Positions 11,412 through 44,232 of a stretch of DNA of 64,000 bases are shown piece by piece. The stretch lies in NCBI RefSeq assembly GCF_030817415.1, contig NZ_JAUSZI010000002.1:4774001-4838000 (forward strand), given 5' to 3'. Under the pieces are notes generated by a model that worked only from the letters and a program-made list of their open reading frames with translations, was not told the DNA's origin and did not search any database. Both the position numbers and the translations under genes were made by a program. Numbering within the stretch: position 1 is the first letter of the stretch; the number at the start of each line of letters is the position of its first letter. Origin of the DNA: Streptomyces umbrinus. GTDB lineage: Bacteria > Actinomycetota > Actinomycetes > Streptomycetales > Streptomycetaceae.

Positions 11412-12545
11412 ATGGCGAACTTAGGTGAGTACAAGAGGCGTTGGAGGACGGTGGCGGCTGCCGGGGCTGTGGCGGCCGTGCTGGTGGTGGGGACCGTGCC
11501 GGCTGTGGCCGCGGATCCCGGGCACGGGGTGGTCCGTGGTGACCGGGGGCTCGACAAGGAGGCGCTGCGGGCAGCCCTCGCCGGGCTGCCCGATGAGAAC
11601 GTGACGGGTGGGCTGATCCGGATGTCCGGAACGGACGGCCGCTGGTCGGGCACGGCCGGCCCGTCCGTGCCGTCCGCCGACGCGCACTTCAGGATCGGCA
11701 GTGTCACGAAGATCTTCACGTCGACCGTGCTGCTCCAACTGGCCGCCGAGGGACGGCTGACCCTGGACGACACGGTGCAGGAGTTGATGCCGGGCCTTCT
11801 GCCGGCCGGCTACTTCCCCGTCACCGTGGGCCAGTTGCTCAGCCACACCAGCGGCCTGCAGATCATGACCTGCGCCACGGAGGACATGTCACCGCGCGAG
11901 GCCGTCGACGCCTCCCTGGCCTGCGGCGAGCCGACGGAACCGGGCAGGGCCACCCGGTACAACGGCATCAACTACTTCATCGCGGGCCTGATCATCGAGC
12001 AGGTGACGGGCCATGCTTACGGCTCCGAGGTTCGCACCCGCATCCTCACCCCCCTCCGCCTGCGCGACACCTACGTCCCCGCCCTGGACGACTGGTCAAT
12101 CCCGGCGCCCTACACACGCGGCCTGGTGGCAGTGCCGGGCTCCGGCGAGCTCAAGGACGTGAGCGTCCAGAACCCGTACGGGTGGGCGGAGGGCGGCATG
12201 ATCTCCAACGCCCCCGACCTGGCACGCTTCTTCACGGCCCTGTACCGCGGCCGTCTCCTCCCGCCGGCCCAGCAGAAGGACCTGTTCCGGATGCCCGCCG
12301 CGGCGTCCGGCGACACGCAGTTCAGCTACGGCGGGCTCCAGCGCACCGAGTTCCCCGACGGCACCGTCGTCTGGGGCAAGAGCGGGCACGTCCCCGGCTA
12401 CACGAGCGGCGCCTTCGCCTCCCGTGACCTCCGCCGTGTCCTGGTCTACGCCCTCAACCCGACGGACCGGTCCCCGGAACTGCCGTACGTCCTGCGGATA
12501 GCGGGGGCGGCGTTCGACGTCCCCATACCGGCTACAGCTGGCTGA
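11412..12545 (+). CDS. Secreted serine hydrolase, beta-lactamase/D-alanyl-D-alanine carboxypeptidase (class C-like) family
   Basis: 377 residues from ATG 11412 (GAGG about 9 bases upstream); in-frame starts exist at 11343 and 11388. The N-terminus is a signal peptide ending near AVAADP. The nucleophile motif S-x-x-K is SVTK in RIGSVTKIF. The second motif, usually Y-x-N, reads Y-N-G in RYNGINYF, so the usual Asn position is Gly. A late K-S-G followed by HVPGY fits the third motif. The family covers D,D-peptidases, esterases and class C beta-lactamases, so substrate cannot be assigned. The 3' end overlaps the convergent DUF4132 gene by 14 bases. Confidence 0.85.
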   Translation: MANLGEYKRRWRTVAAAGAVAAVLVVGTVPAVAADPGHGVVRGDRGLDKEALRAALAGLPDENVTGGLIRMSGTDGRWSGTAGPSVPSADAHFRIGSVTKIFTSTVLLQLAAEGRLTLDDTVQELMPGLLPAGYFPVTVGQLLSHTSGLQIMTCATEDMSPREAVDASLACGEPTEPGRATRYNGINYFIAGLIIEQVTGHAYGSEVRTRILTPLRLRDTYVPALDDWSIPAPYTRGLVAVPGSGELKDVSVQNPYGWAEGGMISNAPDLARFFTALYRGRLLPPAQQKDLFRMPAAASGDTQFSYGGLQRTEFPDGTVVWGKSGHVPGYTSGAFASRDLRRVLVYALNPTDRSPELPYVLRIAGAAFDVPIPATAG

Positions 12546-15003
12546 GGATCGTCGGGTCCGTGATCTCCGTGTCCTTGGCCAGCATCATCGCCTTGCTGAG
12601 GATGACGGCGAGGGTGCGGTCTCCCTCGTAGGGGAGGTAGCCGGTCTGGGGAGTCGTCGCGGACTTGGGGACGATGCACAGGTACTGGTCGTTCGGGGTC
12701 ATCAGGATGTTGCCCGAGCCGAGGTGGATCTTGTACGTGTGACGCTCGCCCTTCACGTGCAGGAAGCGGCCCTCCAGGGTGCAGCGGTCGGCTATCGCGA
12801 GCCGGGGGATCAGGCGGTCGAGGAGGGCCCGGCGGGTCTCGGCGCTCTGGTTCAGTTCGCCGAAGCTGTACCCCGACCAGTACTCCTGGAAGCGGCCGCC
12901 CGGGCCGCCGTCCTGCCAGGTCGGGTCGTTGCCGACGCTCGCGACACCCACGAACAGGTCGACGTCGCGCAGGACTTCGGAGAGGGCGAGGGGCGGGATC
13001 CCGGTGAGGGGCAGGGGCTCGACCGGGTCCTGCCCGTCCCGCAGCCACATGCTGTACTCGCCGCCGTAGCAGTGGGCCGAGTTCTCCGGCGCGTCGATCG
13101 GGTAGAAGCGGACCTGGTCGGTGCGCAGCCGCAGGTAGCTGCCGGACTCCGTGGTGTCCTCGCCGTACTCCTCGCCGTCGCCCTCGATCCAGTACTCGGC
13201 GCGCAGCCCCCACTGGGGCAGCTCCCGGGTGGCCGGCGGAGCCGAGTCGTCGACGCACAGCCGGAGCTTGTTGCGCCAACCCCTGATCGCGGCCAGCGAG
13301 TTGAACTGGTGCTGCCGCAGCACGTGCGCCGCGAAACGGTTCGAGTAGGTGCCCGTGGCGCGCTCGGCGTCGGTGAGCAGGTACACCTCGCGGTGGGCCT
13401 GTTTGAACGGCTGGGTGATCTCGTGCCGCTCCAGCCAGTCGCGCCAGGCGACGATCTCGGCCGGTTCGCGCCCGACCGGGTGCCAGAGCTCGACCTCCGA
13501 ACCCGTGGTCACCGGATCGTCGGTGAGCGTGCGCAGCTCGCCGTCGGCGAAGCCGACCGGTCTGCCGTCGACCGTCCACAGGAGGCGCCTGGCGAGGGTG
13601 CCGACCAGCGGGTGGTCGATGTAGCGCTCGCGCCAGGCGTCGTACGCCCAGGTGCGACGGGCCAGGAACTGACGGTCGAGCCGCTCCGCCTGCGCCGAGA
13701 GCATCTTGTCGATGTCCTTGGCGGCGGCCTTGAGCTCCTTGAGCTCGTCGGCGTGATCCCGCTTCACGGCGGCGGGCACGCTCTTGACCTCCTTGCCTGC
13801 CGCGTTGCGCCAGCCGAGCACGGACTTGGTGCCGTGGACCTCGATGAGGGCGGTGACGTCCCCGAGTCGGTGCAGGGCGCGCCCCACCTCGGTGAGCCCG
13901 TACGCCGGGACGGCTAGCTCCTCGATCTCCTCCCGGCTCAGGCCGAGAGCGGTGGCGCGCGCCTCCAACGCCACGTCGAGCAGTTTCGCCGTGTTCTTGT
14001 ACGTCACCCGGGTGGCCAGGCGGGCCAGTTCGGCGAGGGCGGCCTCGCTGTCGACGCGCGAGAGCGCGATGACGCCCGCGTTGGCGACCTTCGGGTTGCG
14101 CGGGCCCATTCCGGCGACCTTCTTGAGGGAGGTCTCGACGAGCGCGCCCAGCGCCCGGGCCGTGTCGGGGTGCGGCGGGAGAAGGGACAGCAGCCAGGCG
14201 AGTCCGCGCAGGGCGTTGGCGTTGTAGGGGTCGTAGGCGTTGTTGATGTCCGGCTCGTACGTCTGGCGTTCCAGCGGGATGGTGCGCGGGCGGCCGACGA
14301 GGGCGAGCCAGGACAGCGCGGTCTCCCTGACCCGGTCCGCTCCGATGCTGTCGATGAGGGCCTGGGCCTGCTTGTCCCACTTGGCGCTCGGCTTGGAGGC
14401 GGTGGCCGTGAGGGCGTGGAGGAGCAGGGCCTGCCAGGGGTCGTCGTCCGAGCCGGTGAGCTGCTCCATGGCGTGATCGGCCCACGCCTCGCCGACGTTG
14501 AGGACAGGGGTGGTGAGCTTCTTGACCAACTCCACGAGGTGCTCCGAGCGGTAGGCGACCAGGGCCGTACGACGGAAGACGGCCACGACGGAGGGCGCGA
14601 GCCGTCGGCCGGTCGCGAGCTCCGCCTCCGCCAGGAGGTCGAGGCGCGTGGCGTGCCAGTAGGAGTGCCGGGCACCGAGCGTTTCGAGCTCCGCCAGCCG
14701 CTCGGTGGGGAGGAAGAAGTCGTCGGGCAGGTCACGGGCGACGATGCCGAGCAGCGTCAGCACCTTCTGCCGGGTCTCCGGCTCCGTGCCGAGCGAGCGG
14801 AAGCGCTCGATGAGCGCGTGGGCGAGCCGGCGACGCTCCTCCACGGGCAGGTTGCGCAGGGTGTCGAAGAGCTCGGACCATTCGTCACCCCAGAAGCCGT
14901 GGTTGGCGACAGCGGCCTTCAGCACCTCGTCGGCGAGTCTGCCCATGTTCCCCGCGTCGATCTGGTTGCGGATCTTCTGCGTGTGCGATCGCATCGACGC
15001 CAT
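12532..15003 (-). CDS. DUF4132 (MolR-like) domain protein
   Basis: 823 residues with no signal peptide or membrane segment, so probably cytoplasmic. The N-terminal two thirds is alpha-helical and Leu/Ala-rich. The central segment (RRLLWTVDGRPVGFADGE, then a stretch like WRDWLERHEITQPFKQAHRE) is characteristic of DUF4132, and the C-terminal stretch (FLHVKGERHTYKIHLGSGN) matches the conserved tail of such proteins. The N-terminal WGR domain of E. coli MolR is not visible. The ATG shares one base with the stop codon of the small upstream gene (TGATG), so the two are translationally coupled. Biochemical function is unknown. Confidence 0.85.
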   Translation of the reverse strand: MASMRSHTQKIRNQIDAGNMGRLADEVLKAAVANHGFWGDEWSELFDTLRNLPVEERRRLAHALIERFRSLGTEPETRQKVLTLLGIVARDLPDDFFLPTERLAELETLGARHSYWHATRLDLLAEAELATGRRLAPSVVAVFRRTALVAYRSEHLVELVKKLTTPVLNVGEAWADHAMEQLTGSDDDPWQALLLHALTATASKPSAKWDKQAQALIDSIGADRVRETALSWLALVGRPRTIPLERQTYEPDINNAYDPYNANALRGLAWLLSLLPPHPDTARALGALVETSLKKVAGMGPRNPKVANAGVIALSRVDSEAALAELARLATRVTYKNTAKLLDVALEARATALGLSREEIEELAVPAYGLTEVGRALHRLGDVTALIEVHGTKSVLGWRNAAGKEVKSVPAAVKRDHADELKELKAAAKDIDKMLSAQAERLDRQFLARRTWAYDAWRERYIDHPLVGTLARRLLWTVDGRPVGFADGELRTLTDDPVTTGSEVELWHPVGREPAEIVAWRDWLERHEITQPFKQAHREVYLLTDAERATGTYSNRFAAHVLRQHQFNSLAAIRGWRNKLRLCVDDSAPPATRELPQWGLRAEYWIEGDGEEYGEDTTESGSYLRLRTDQVRFYPIDAPENSAHCYGGEYSMWLRDGQDPVEPLPLTGIPPLALSEVLRDVDLFVGVASVGNDPTWQDGGPGGRFQEYWSGYSFGELNQSAETRRALLDRLIPRLAIADRCTLEGRFLHVKGERHTYKIHLGSGNILMTPNDQYLCIVPKSATTPQTGYLPYEGDRTLAVILSKAMMLAKDTEITDPTILSQL

Positions 15004-15395
15004 CAGCCACCCACCAGCGCGACGAGCTTCAGGAACGTGACCTCGGTGCCGAGCTTCAGCTCGATCTCCTCGTCGAGGTCGGTGAACTGCCGGTCCCCCA
15101 CCAGCACCAGGAACCCGTTCCCCGCGAAGGCCTTCAGCGCCAGCTCGGTCTGGGCCTCGGGGTCTATCCGCCGGGGCGTCCGCAACGCGTACCCGTTCAG
15201 CACCCGCTCGGTGTCGTTGGGCTGCACCAGCCCCTGGAACACCTCCGGCGTACGCGCGTTGAACTCGGCGACCTCCTGGAAGACCCGCCGCCGGATCAAC
15301 TCGCGCAGCGCGAGCCGCTCCTCGGCGATCTCCAGCCCCCAGCCCGCACCGCGGTCCCCGCTTGTCGTCTCGTCGACGAACGTCACCATTCCCAT
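15003..15395 (-). CDS. Small protein with ubiquitin/MoaD-like beta-grasp features and C-terminal Gly-Gly
   Basis: 130 residues from ATG 15395 (in-frame alternatives: ATG 15389, TTG 15425). The start MGMVTFVDETTSG followed by WGLEIAEERL resembles the first beta hairpin of a beta-grasp fold, and RELIRRRVFQEVAEFN would be the following helix. The C-terminal half has the spacing of ubiquitin/MoaD-type domains: GFLVLVGDRQFTDLDEE, then GTEVTFLKLVALVGG with the terminal Gly-Gly as last residues. About 40 residues between the halves would be an insertion. The stop overlaps the DUF4132 start by one base. An inverted repeat ACTGA-CAA-TCAGT (15418-15430) lies upstream. The fold assignment is from pattern only; no E1-like enzyme or JAMM protease is encoded nearby. 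Confidence 0.75.
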   Translation of the reverse strand: MGMVTFVDETTSGDRGAGWGLEIAEERLALRELIRRRVFQEVAEFNARTPEVFQGLVQPNDTERVLNGYALRTPRRIDPEAQTELALKAFAGNGFLVLVGDRQFTDLDEEIELKLGTEVTFLKLVALVGG

Positions 15396-43913: not shown

Positions 43914-44232
43914 GACGGCCTCCGGACGTGGGCGTTCGGCGTTCACGGTTCGGCCCAGGCGCACGGCACACGGTTCATGGGCCGCTCCCCGATGGTCGGT
44001 CCCATCCCAGCGCGCCAGTCACGGCCCGTGGATCAGCGTACCGGGCGCGCCGGTACGCCGGCCACGCGGCGGTAGCCGCATGATCGATACCGCCCCGTCC
44101 ACCATGCGAGCGACGATAGGAAAGGGGCCACACGCACTCGGACGTCCGGAAGGGAGCCGGGCCGGGACCCGGGAACAGCAGCGGGAAAAGTAGCAGGTCA
44201 CGAGCCCTCGTGCGGCCGGAAACGGAGACCCC
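43914..44232. other. Divergent glyA-rocD intergenic region
   Basis: 319 bases carrying the glyA leader with its short ORF (43943-43978, minus) and the rocD leader with GGAGA before GTG 44233. No confident -35/-10 pair and no glycine-riboswitch core could be recognised by eye. A short palindromic stretch (TACCGG-N8-CCGGTA type) lies near 44038-44058. Confidence 0.35.
43943..43978 (-). CDS. Short upstream ORF in the glyA leader (possible leader peptide)
   Basis: ATG at 43978 with GGGGAG six bases upstream, followed by 11 codons ([11 protein letters not shown]) and a TGA, 29 bases before the glyA ATG. It has its own good ribosome binding site and contains Cys and Trp codons. No terminator/antiterminator pair is evident. 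Regulatory function is inference. Confidence 0.35.

Follow-up and report, generated by a model that had tools for sequence, protein, structure and literature searches.

In a 64,000-nucleotide stretch of the Streptomyces umbrinus genome (contig NZ_JAUSZI010000002.1; this whole stretch is referred to as the window), a 130-residue ubiquitin-like protein (UBL) with a free Gly-Gly end is encoded directly upstream of, and overlapping with, the gene of an 823-residue DUF4132-DUF7737 protein. Comparison of related loci revealed that one cysteine of this partner, Cys776 in the DUF7737 domain, is present in every readable partner found beside a Gly-Gly UBL and is missing from the partners assigned to UBLs that lost this tail. 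The two proteins very likely function together, and the pair points to a bacterial tagging or carrier system in two parts, of a kind not described so far, in which, as we consider reasonably probable, the tail of the UBL acts at Cys776.

Covariation of the UBL tail with Cys776

The Gly-Gly end closes 250 of the 252 proteins listed across three UBL searches, the exceptions being one fragment and one protein ending in Gly-Ser. For the two large searches, these counts cover the best 120 of 1321 and the best 120 of 2347 matches: starting from the window UBL, Gly-Gly was found in 119 of 120 (the window's own protein counted) and Gly-Ser in one, and starting from a more distant relative it was found in all 120. 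A third search, from a far UBL subfamily, gave 12 matches, of which 11 end in Gly-Gly and the twelfth is a fragment of 83 residues. Moreover, a scan of genome contigs for the UBL yielded 66 loci, all featuring the tail. Conservation in homologues, on which the original prediction had made its case depend, is hence well documented, and because the relatives retain the tail, it is not a product of chance. Among the other genes of the 66 loci and the window, as called by a simple script, 11 of 805 end in Gly-Gly.

On the partner side, an alignment of 132 rows was compiled, 116 of which are readable at position 776 (the other 16 are contig ends, fragments or, in one case, a deletion). Where the UBL of the locus ends in Gly-Gly, all 94 readable DUF7737 domains (92 loci) have Cys776; two of these loci contribute two rows each (L077, L239) and many are close Streptomyces relatives, so that the 94 rows are not independent. 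In four genomes whose UBL lost Gly-Gly, none of the five partner domains kept the cysteine. Position 776 is occupied by Pro and Phe in the two partners of L162 and by Val in L250 (UBL tail Gly-Ala in both loci), by Val in G496 (tail Ser-Ser) and by Leu in G567 (tail Gly-Leu), with UBL and partner on different contigs in the latter two genomes. For a fifth tail-less UBL from Armatimonadota (G455, tail Glu-Pro), neither a partner nor any DUF7737 match was found in the genome. Cys776 is furthermore the sole position altered in all five Gly-Gly-less partners among 47 invariant C-terminal positions (residues 403–823; conservation of 97% or more among the Gly-Gly rows, and no change in seven partners of a long type described below), and it occurs in none of nine readable DUF7737 proteins that are distant and lack a UBL. 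In a tree of the C-terminal half of the partner, calculated without the columns around Cys776, Gly-Gly was lost twice (L162 with L164, and L250 with L263); both losses fall within the long type and both coincide with loss of the cysteine, two of the tails being assigned through inferred pairings.

We regard this covariation as a strong lead, but not as proof, and several points weigh against it or against the role derived from it. There are two losses only, with one pair on well-supported branches, and a paired sign test cannot reach significance with this number. The pairing of UBL and partner in G496 and G567 was inferred across contigs, and the Gly-Ser relative departs from the conserved tail. 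Cys776 can also be present in close DUF4132 copies that no UBL adjoins, as in L132 and L157, whose genomes hold another pair. In total, eight readable rows with Cys776 lack a UBL in the fetched piece: these two second copies, two fetched pieces too short to include the UBL (L127, L131) and four rows from stretches that are short or limited by a contig end (L160, L161, L260, L266). The AlphaFold2 model offers little guidance at the site itself, with a mean predicted local distance difference test score (pLDDT) of 57 for residues 771–780, and the sequence similarity of the UBL to ThiS and MoaD is weak. In addition, genes for ubiquitin-activating-type enzymes (E1) and JAB proteins are widespread in control genomes, so that their presence says little. 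Finally, the activity of the partner core need not depend on the tail, because most other invariant core residues persist in partners without Cys776.

In fact, His508, Gln531, Gln535, Arg538, Glu539, Tyr541, Arg556, Ser675-Glu676, Arg679 and Asp682 are retained in the five tail-less as well as in nine UBL-less partners. Because so much of the conserved core survives in these proteins, DUF4132 may be read as the older enzyme core, to which handling of the UBL tail would have been added in DUF7737. The original prediction proposed that the DUF4132 protein might be a partner or a target of the small protein, or an enzyme acting on it; the alignment adds a candidate site, Cys776, to this proposal.

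The gene pair and its distribution

The UBL gene starts with ATG, stops with TGA and encodes the C-terminal residues FLKLVALVGG (TEVTFLKLVALVGG), so that the glycines are indeed the exact last residues; likewise, the proposed one-base overlap was found in the sequence, with the downstream ATG at 15003 sharing TGATG with the UBL stop (Table 1). No Pfam or NCBIfam family matched the window UBL. Its AlphaFold2 model, with a predicted template modelling score (pTM) of 0.75, presents a beta-grasp similar to those of ubiquitin and MoaD, followed by a flexible tail, and is built from strands 2–10 and 19–23, helices 30–48 and 79–91, and strands 95–99, 102–104, 110–112 and 118–123. Ubiquitin-like proteins or MoaD make up most of the Foldseek and VIA matches listed for this model, with every Foldseek E-value above 0.001; MoaD is the best Foldseek row, and MoaD within molybdopterin synthase is among the matches. 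The beta-grasp fold first guessed from the spacing of the sequence is thereby supported at the level of prediction, and fold and tail together suggest that the UBL belongs with the ubiquitin/ThiS/MoaD superfamily. Profiles matched few of 67 UBL relatives, namely Urm1 in four (best E 0.13) and ThiS in two (best E 0.074). When the UBL was aligned by hhalign with 14 ThiS/MoaD rows (from 30 loci), alignment A2 scored 20.5 and so exceeded each of 100 shuffles (highest score 15.5), and alignment A4 scored 15.2, below the best shuffle (15.9), with probabilities of at most 5.5%. A homologue of solved structure was not found by sequence at E-values up to 10.

Apart from DUF4132, the partner contains a second named domain, DUF7737, which the original prediction did not mention. 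Its N-terminal 360 residues are modelled by AlphaFold2 as a helical, HEAT-like region, with structural matches mostly to helical-repeat proteins; the model is weak over the DUF4132/DUF7737 half, and the structural matches listed fall mostly in the repeats. A long partner type of about 1625–1740 residues is present in L246, L251, L252, L115, L116, L162, L163 and L250; L246, the only one of this type scanned, has the architecture DUF5724-DUF4132-DUF7737.

Table 1. Features of the UBL-DUF4132 gene pair, in window coordinates
Feature	Position	Strand	Basis
UBL, 130 residues, predicted beta-grasp	15003..15395	-	open reading frame translation, AlphaFold2, structure searches
Codons of terminal Gly129-Gly130 (GGT GGC)	15006..15011	-	sequence
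TGATG, UBL stop and ATG of the DUF4132 gene, 1-base overlap	15001..15005	-	sequence
DUF4132-DUF7737 partner, 823 residues	12532..15003	-	open reading frame, domain search
N-terminal HEAT-like repeat region, residues about 1–360	13924..15003	-	AlphaFold2, structural matches
DUF4132 (PF13569), residues 403–576	13276..13797	-	E 2.8e-55, 187.5 bits against a cut-off of 27
DUF7737 (PF24879), residues 721–823	12535..12843	-	E 1.1e-41, 141.5 bits against a cut-off of 27
Cys776 codon, motif YLCIVP	12676..12678	-	covaries with UBL Gly-Gly

Linkage of the two genes, likewise anticipated, holds in Actinomycetota, in Armatimonadota and on a Novosphingobium plasmid. In the contig scan, a DUF4132 match follows the UBL in 65 of the 66 loci, and the last one (L022) holds a short stretch only, which by inspection (unscored) looks like a truncated DUF4132 start. 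Of the 396 Actinomycetota genomes examined, including that of the window, 18 have a UBL relative. Ten carry Gly-Gly and all ten have an adjoining DUF4132 gene, albeit in pieces in G316, and with one stop within the UBL stretch in G444. The relatives in the other eight genomes lack Gly-Gly; no DUF4132 match was found in the six of these neighbourhoods fetched, and none to DUF7737 anywhere in the eight genomes, which are 80–98% complete. These eight UBL homologues, at L097–L104 (genomes G108, G132, G165, G283, G356, G383, G419 and G435), end in SG, RG, GS, AS, EA or DA. In 291 genomes of Armatimonadota, the phylum named in the record of L076, 27 UBL copies were detected in 24 genomes, 22 of them with Gly-Gly and five with another end. 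The plasmid-borne pair from Novosphingobium (Pseudomonadota) has the UBL tail LTPLKGG. A few kilobases upstream of this pair (L203, Novosphingobium humi plasmid, NZ_CP103869.1) lie genes for proteins of 509 and 255 residues, which presumably resemble an IS21-type transposase pair and may hint at mobility.

Gene order is reversed in L005/L085, the distribution within the genus is patchy (a UBL match in nine of 61 near genomes), and decayed pairs occur, namely L022, L247, where stop-interrupted remnants of DUF4132 are left, and L087, with both genes in pieces. L162 features one UBL, ending in Gly-Ala, between two DUF4132 genes. Viewed from the DUF4132 side, linkage is looser: the second close copies at L132 and L157, in G185 and G515, have no adjoining UBL, two UBLs stand against five DUF7737 matches in G554, and no UBL match was found at ten more distant DUF7737 loci (L165–L174). 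The genome of the window itself has three further DUF4132 matches (L123, L124 and L125, near 1.009, 0.681 and 9.811 Mb), in open reading frames of about 296, 411 and 326 codons; the 17–18 kb fetched around them contained no convincing match to the UBL (best E 0.55). Two of these three share the same score, and their neighbouring large open reading frames, about 9 Mb apart, are 79% identical.

Across 23 diverse loci, compared by means of the simple script gene caller and with unequal flanks, UBL and DUF4132 are the only widely common families, the next one being common to three loci; no E1, E2 (conjugating enzyme), RING or JAB gene was found to be common to them. Within the window, the flanking products, a beta-lactamase-family protein and an aldo/keto reductase, match no E1, E2 or deconjugase family, and neither does the partner, in agreement with the earlier remark that no such enzyme is encoded nearby. 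A role as phage or defence-island cargo was rejected, with no match in 50,697 phage records at E 1e-5; two peptide patterns gave no confirmed occurrence in viral contigs, and PADLOC gave no significant match (best E 0.053). Elsewhere in the window, a ZMP/ZTP riboswitch was detected at 43946–44032 on the minus strand (55.9 bits versus a gathering score of 39).

What the tail might do at Cys776

To our knowledge, the free C-terminal Gly-Gly of beta-grasp proteins is the site of activation and transfer in the characterised cases. The gene pair could accordingly be self-contained, with a ubiquitin-like carrier or modifier featuring such a tail and a dedicated partner enzyme. Because the partner cysteine was lost together with the tail, Cys776 would be the residue handling the tail carboxyl, acting on the last glycine most likely as a thioester or as an acyl-disulfide, the link found in the ThiS-ThiF pair. 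We give such a covalent intermediate, probably a thioester or a related acyl form, slightly less than an even chance. Either the UBL itself or a group attached to it might then be handed on by the partner to a target bound by the HEAT-like repeats, which are a usual target-binding scaffold; alternatively, the partner might stay locked to the UBL as a regulatory form. Since neither gene of the pair codes for a recognisable activating enzyme, activation could be provided by a housekeeping E1 of the MoeB/ThiF type encoded elsewhere or by the DUF4132 core itself; ThiF-family genes were found in nine of nine genomes examined, but control genomes mostly have them too (12 of 14). The covalent chemistry, the direction of transfer, the source of activation and the target are elements that we infer. 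The furthest-reaching version, a two-gene transfer system without adjoining E1, E2 or E3 (ligase) of known fold, in which the partner activates or accepts the UBL via Cys776 and the repeats select the targets, seems rather unlikely at present.

An alternative option, which we likewise hold to be unlikely, would be a UBL serving as regulatory or structural subunit, whose tail docks non-covalently in a pocket with Cys776 in its wall, much as the tail of MoaD inserts into MoaE. Consistently, MoaD within molybdopterin synthase is among the best structural matches, and the UBL gene still adjoins partners without Cys776 (L162, L250), so that binding can outlast the cysteine. Such a pocket would, however, be expected to accept Ser or Ala, yet Cys is strictly kept in the Gly-Gly loci, and position 776 alone is altered in all five partners of UBLs without Gly-Gly.

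The MoaD/ThiS-like predicted fold and tail, together with the ThiF-family E1s present in trans, could also point to a sulfur carrier, i.e., a UBL thiocarboxylate whose sulfur is used biosynthetically by the partner, with Cys776 as persulfide or relay. This appears improbable, as no third gene accompanies the pair in the 23 loci and the partner consists of about 360 residues of repeats and a core that is also found without UBL. We are equally doubtful of a deconjugase or processing pair, in which Cys776 would be the nucleophile of a cysteine peptidase freeing the UBL after conjugation by housekeeping enzymes. Cys776 and His760 are each invariant in the Gly-Gly loci (94 of 94), as such a peptidase would have it, but His760 is retained in each of the five partners that lack Cys776 as well as in five of nine UBL-less proteins and is therefore not specific to the pair; moreover, Gly-Gly is already the exact C-terminus, which makes precursor processing needless, and no conjugating enzyme is linked to the pair in the 23 loci.

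The two glycine codons at the UBL end seem to provide the overlapping gene with its ribosome-binding site as well: the first of them is GGT in 53, GGG in 20, GGA in 11 and GGC in seven of 91 cases, i.e., GGT or GGG in 73 and one of GGT, GGG or GGA rather than GGC in 84, a preference that is atypical for high-GC genomes and looks selected at the level of DNA. That Gly-Gly is merely the Shine-Dalgarno sequence of the downstream gene is nevertheless very improbable, and as the whole cause it was rejected, since the tail is retained with reversed gene order (L005) and across intergenic gaps of 16 or 44 nucleotides (L156, L155), ends none of 63 other coupled genes (43 of which have a common ending and cannot be taken as independent) and would leave the covariation with Cys776 unexplained.

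Relation to known systems and significance

In MoaD-MoaE and ThiS-ThiF/ThiG, the active site of the partner receives the tail. These systems likewise combine a small Gly-Gly beta-grasp protein, a fold predicted for the UBL, with a dedicated partner. In contrast to MoaD and ThiS, with about 80 residues, the UBL comprises 130, has an insert before the second helix and lacks a Pfam match, and its partner is composed of HEAT-like repeats, DUF4132 and DUF7737 instead of a MoaE, ThiG or ThiF-type E1. In CysO-Mec+ of mycobacteria, a Gly-Gly sulfur carrier from Actinobacteria is likewise matched with a partner enzyme of its own; the partners differ, and the sequence comparison of the UBL covered the ThiS/MoaD set. 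The bacterial operon-type systems, such as Cap2 of the cyclic oligonucleotide-based antiphage signaling system (CBASS), Bil and Bub, also feature a ubiquitin-like protein with conserved C-terminal glycine in a small conserved operon, whereas the only constant partner of the UBL in the 23 loci is DUF4132/DUF7737, without a common E1, E2, RING or JAB gene. E. coli and its relatives have DUF4132 proteins, which we take to be of the MolR/YehI type and which have this domain in common with the partner: a DUF4132 match is present in the E. coli control genome, but DUF7737 matched in none of the 14 control genomes.

Gene clusters of bacterial ubiquitin-like proteins with E1, E2 and JAB have been described (Iyer et al., 2006, PMC1779556), and in the accessible portion of this survey of prokaryotic ubiquitin-like proteins, the terms "MolR" and "HEAT" do not occur. 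A description of the UBL-DUF4132 pair was not found in the literature on DUF4132, DUF7737 and bacterial ubiquitin-like systems, nor was any mention of DUF7737, in a search directed mostly at papers available without subscription. In line with the original prediction, we found no known activity of DUF4132 in this literature, and none of DUF7737; the single mention of DUF4132 in PMC8533742 offers a possible molybdopterin link and nothing further.

A link between the UBL tail and Cys776, if true, would provide the first testable chemistry for DUF4132 and DUF7737 as well as a residue to mutate, with the lineages that lost tail and cysteine together as natural controls. Bacterial ubiquitin-like biology would gain a module without the usual companion enzymes and, if the partner is a transfer enzyme, a new family or class of ubiquitin-like transfer enzymes in at least three bacterial phyla.
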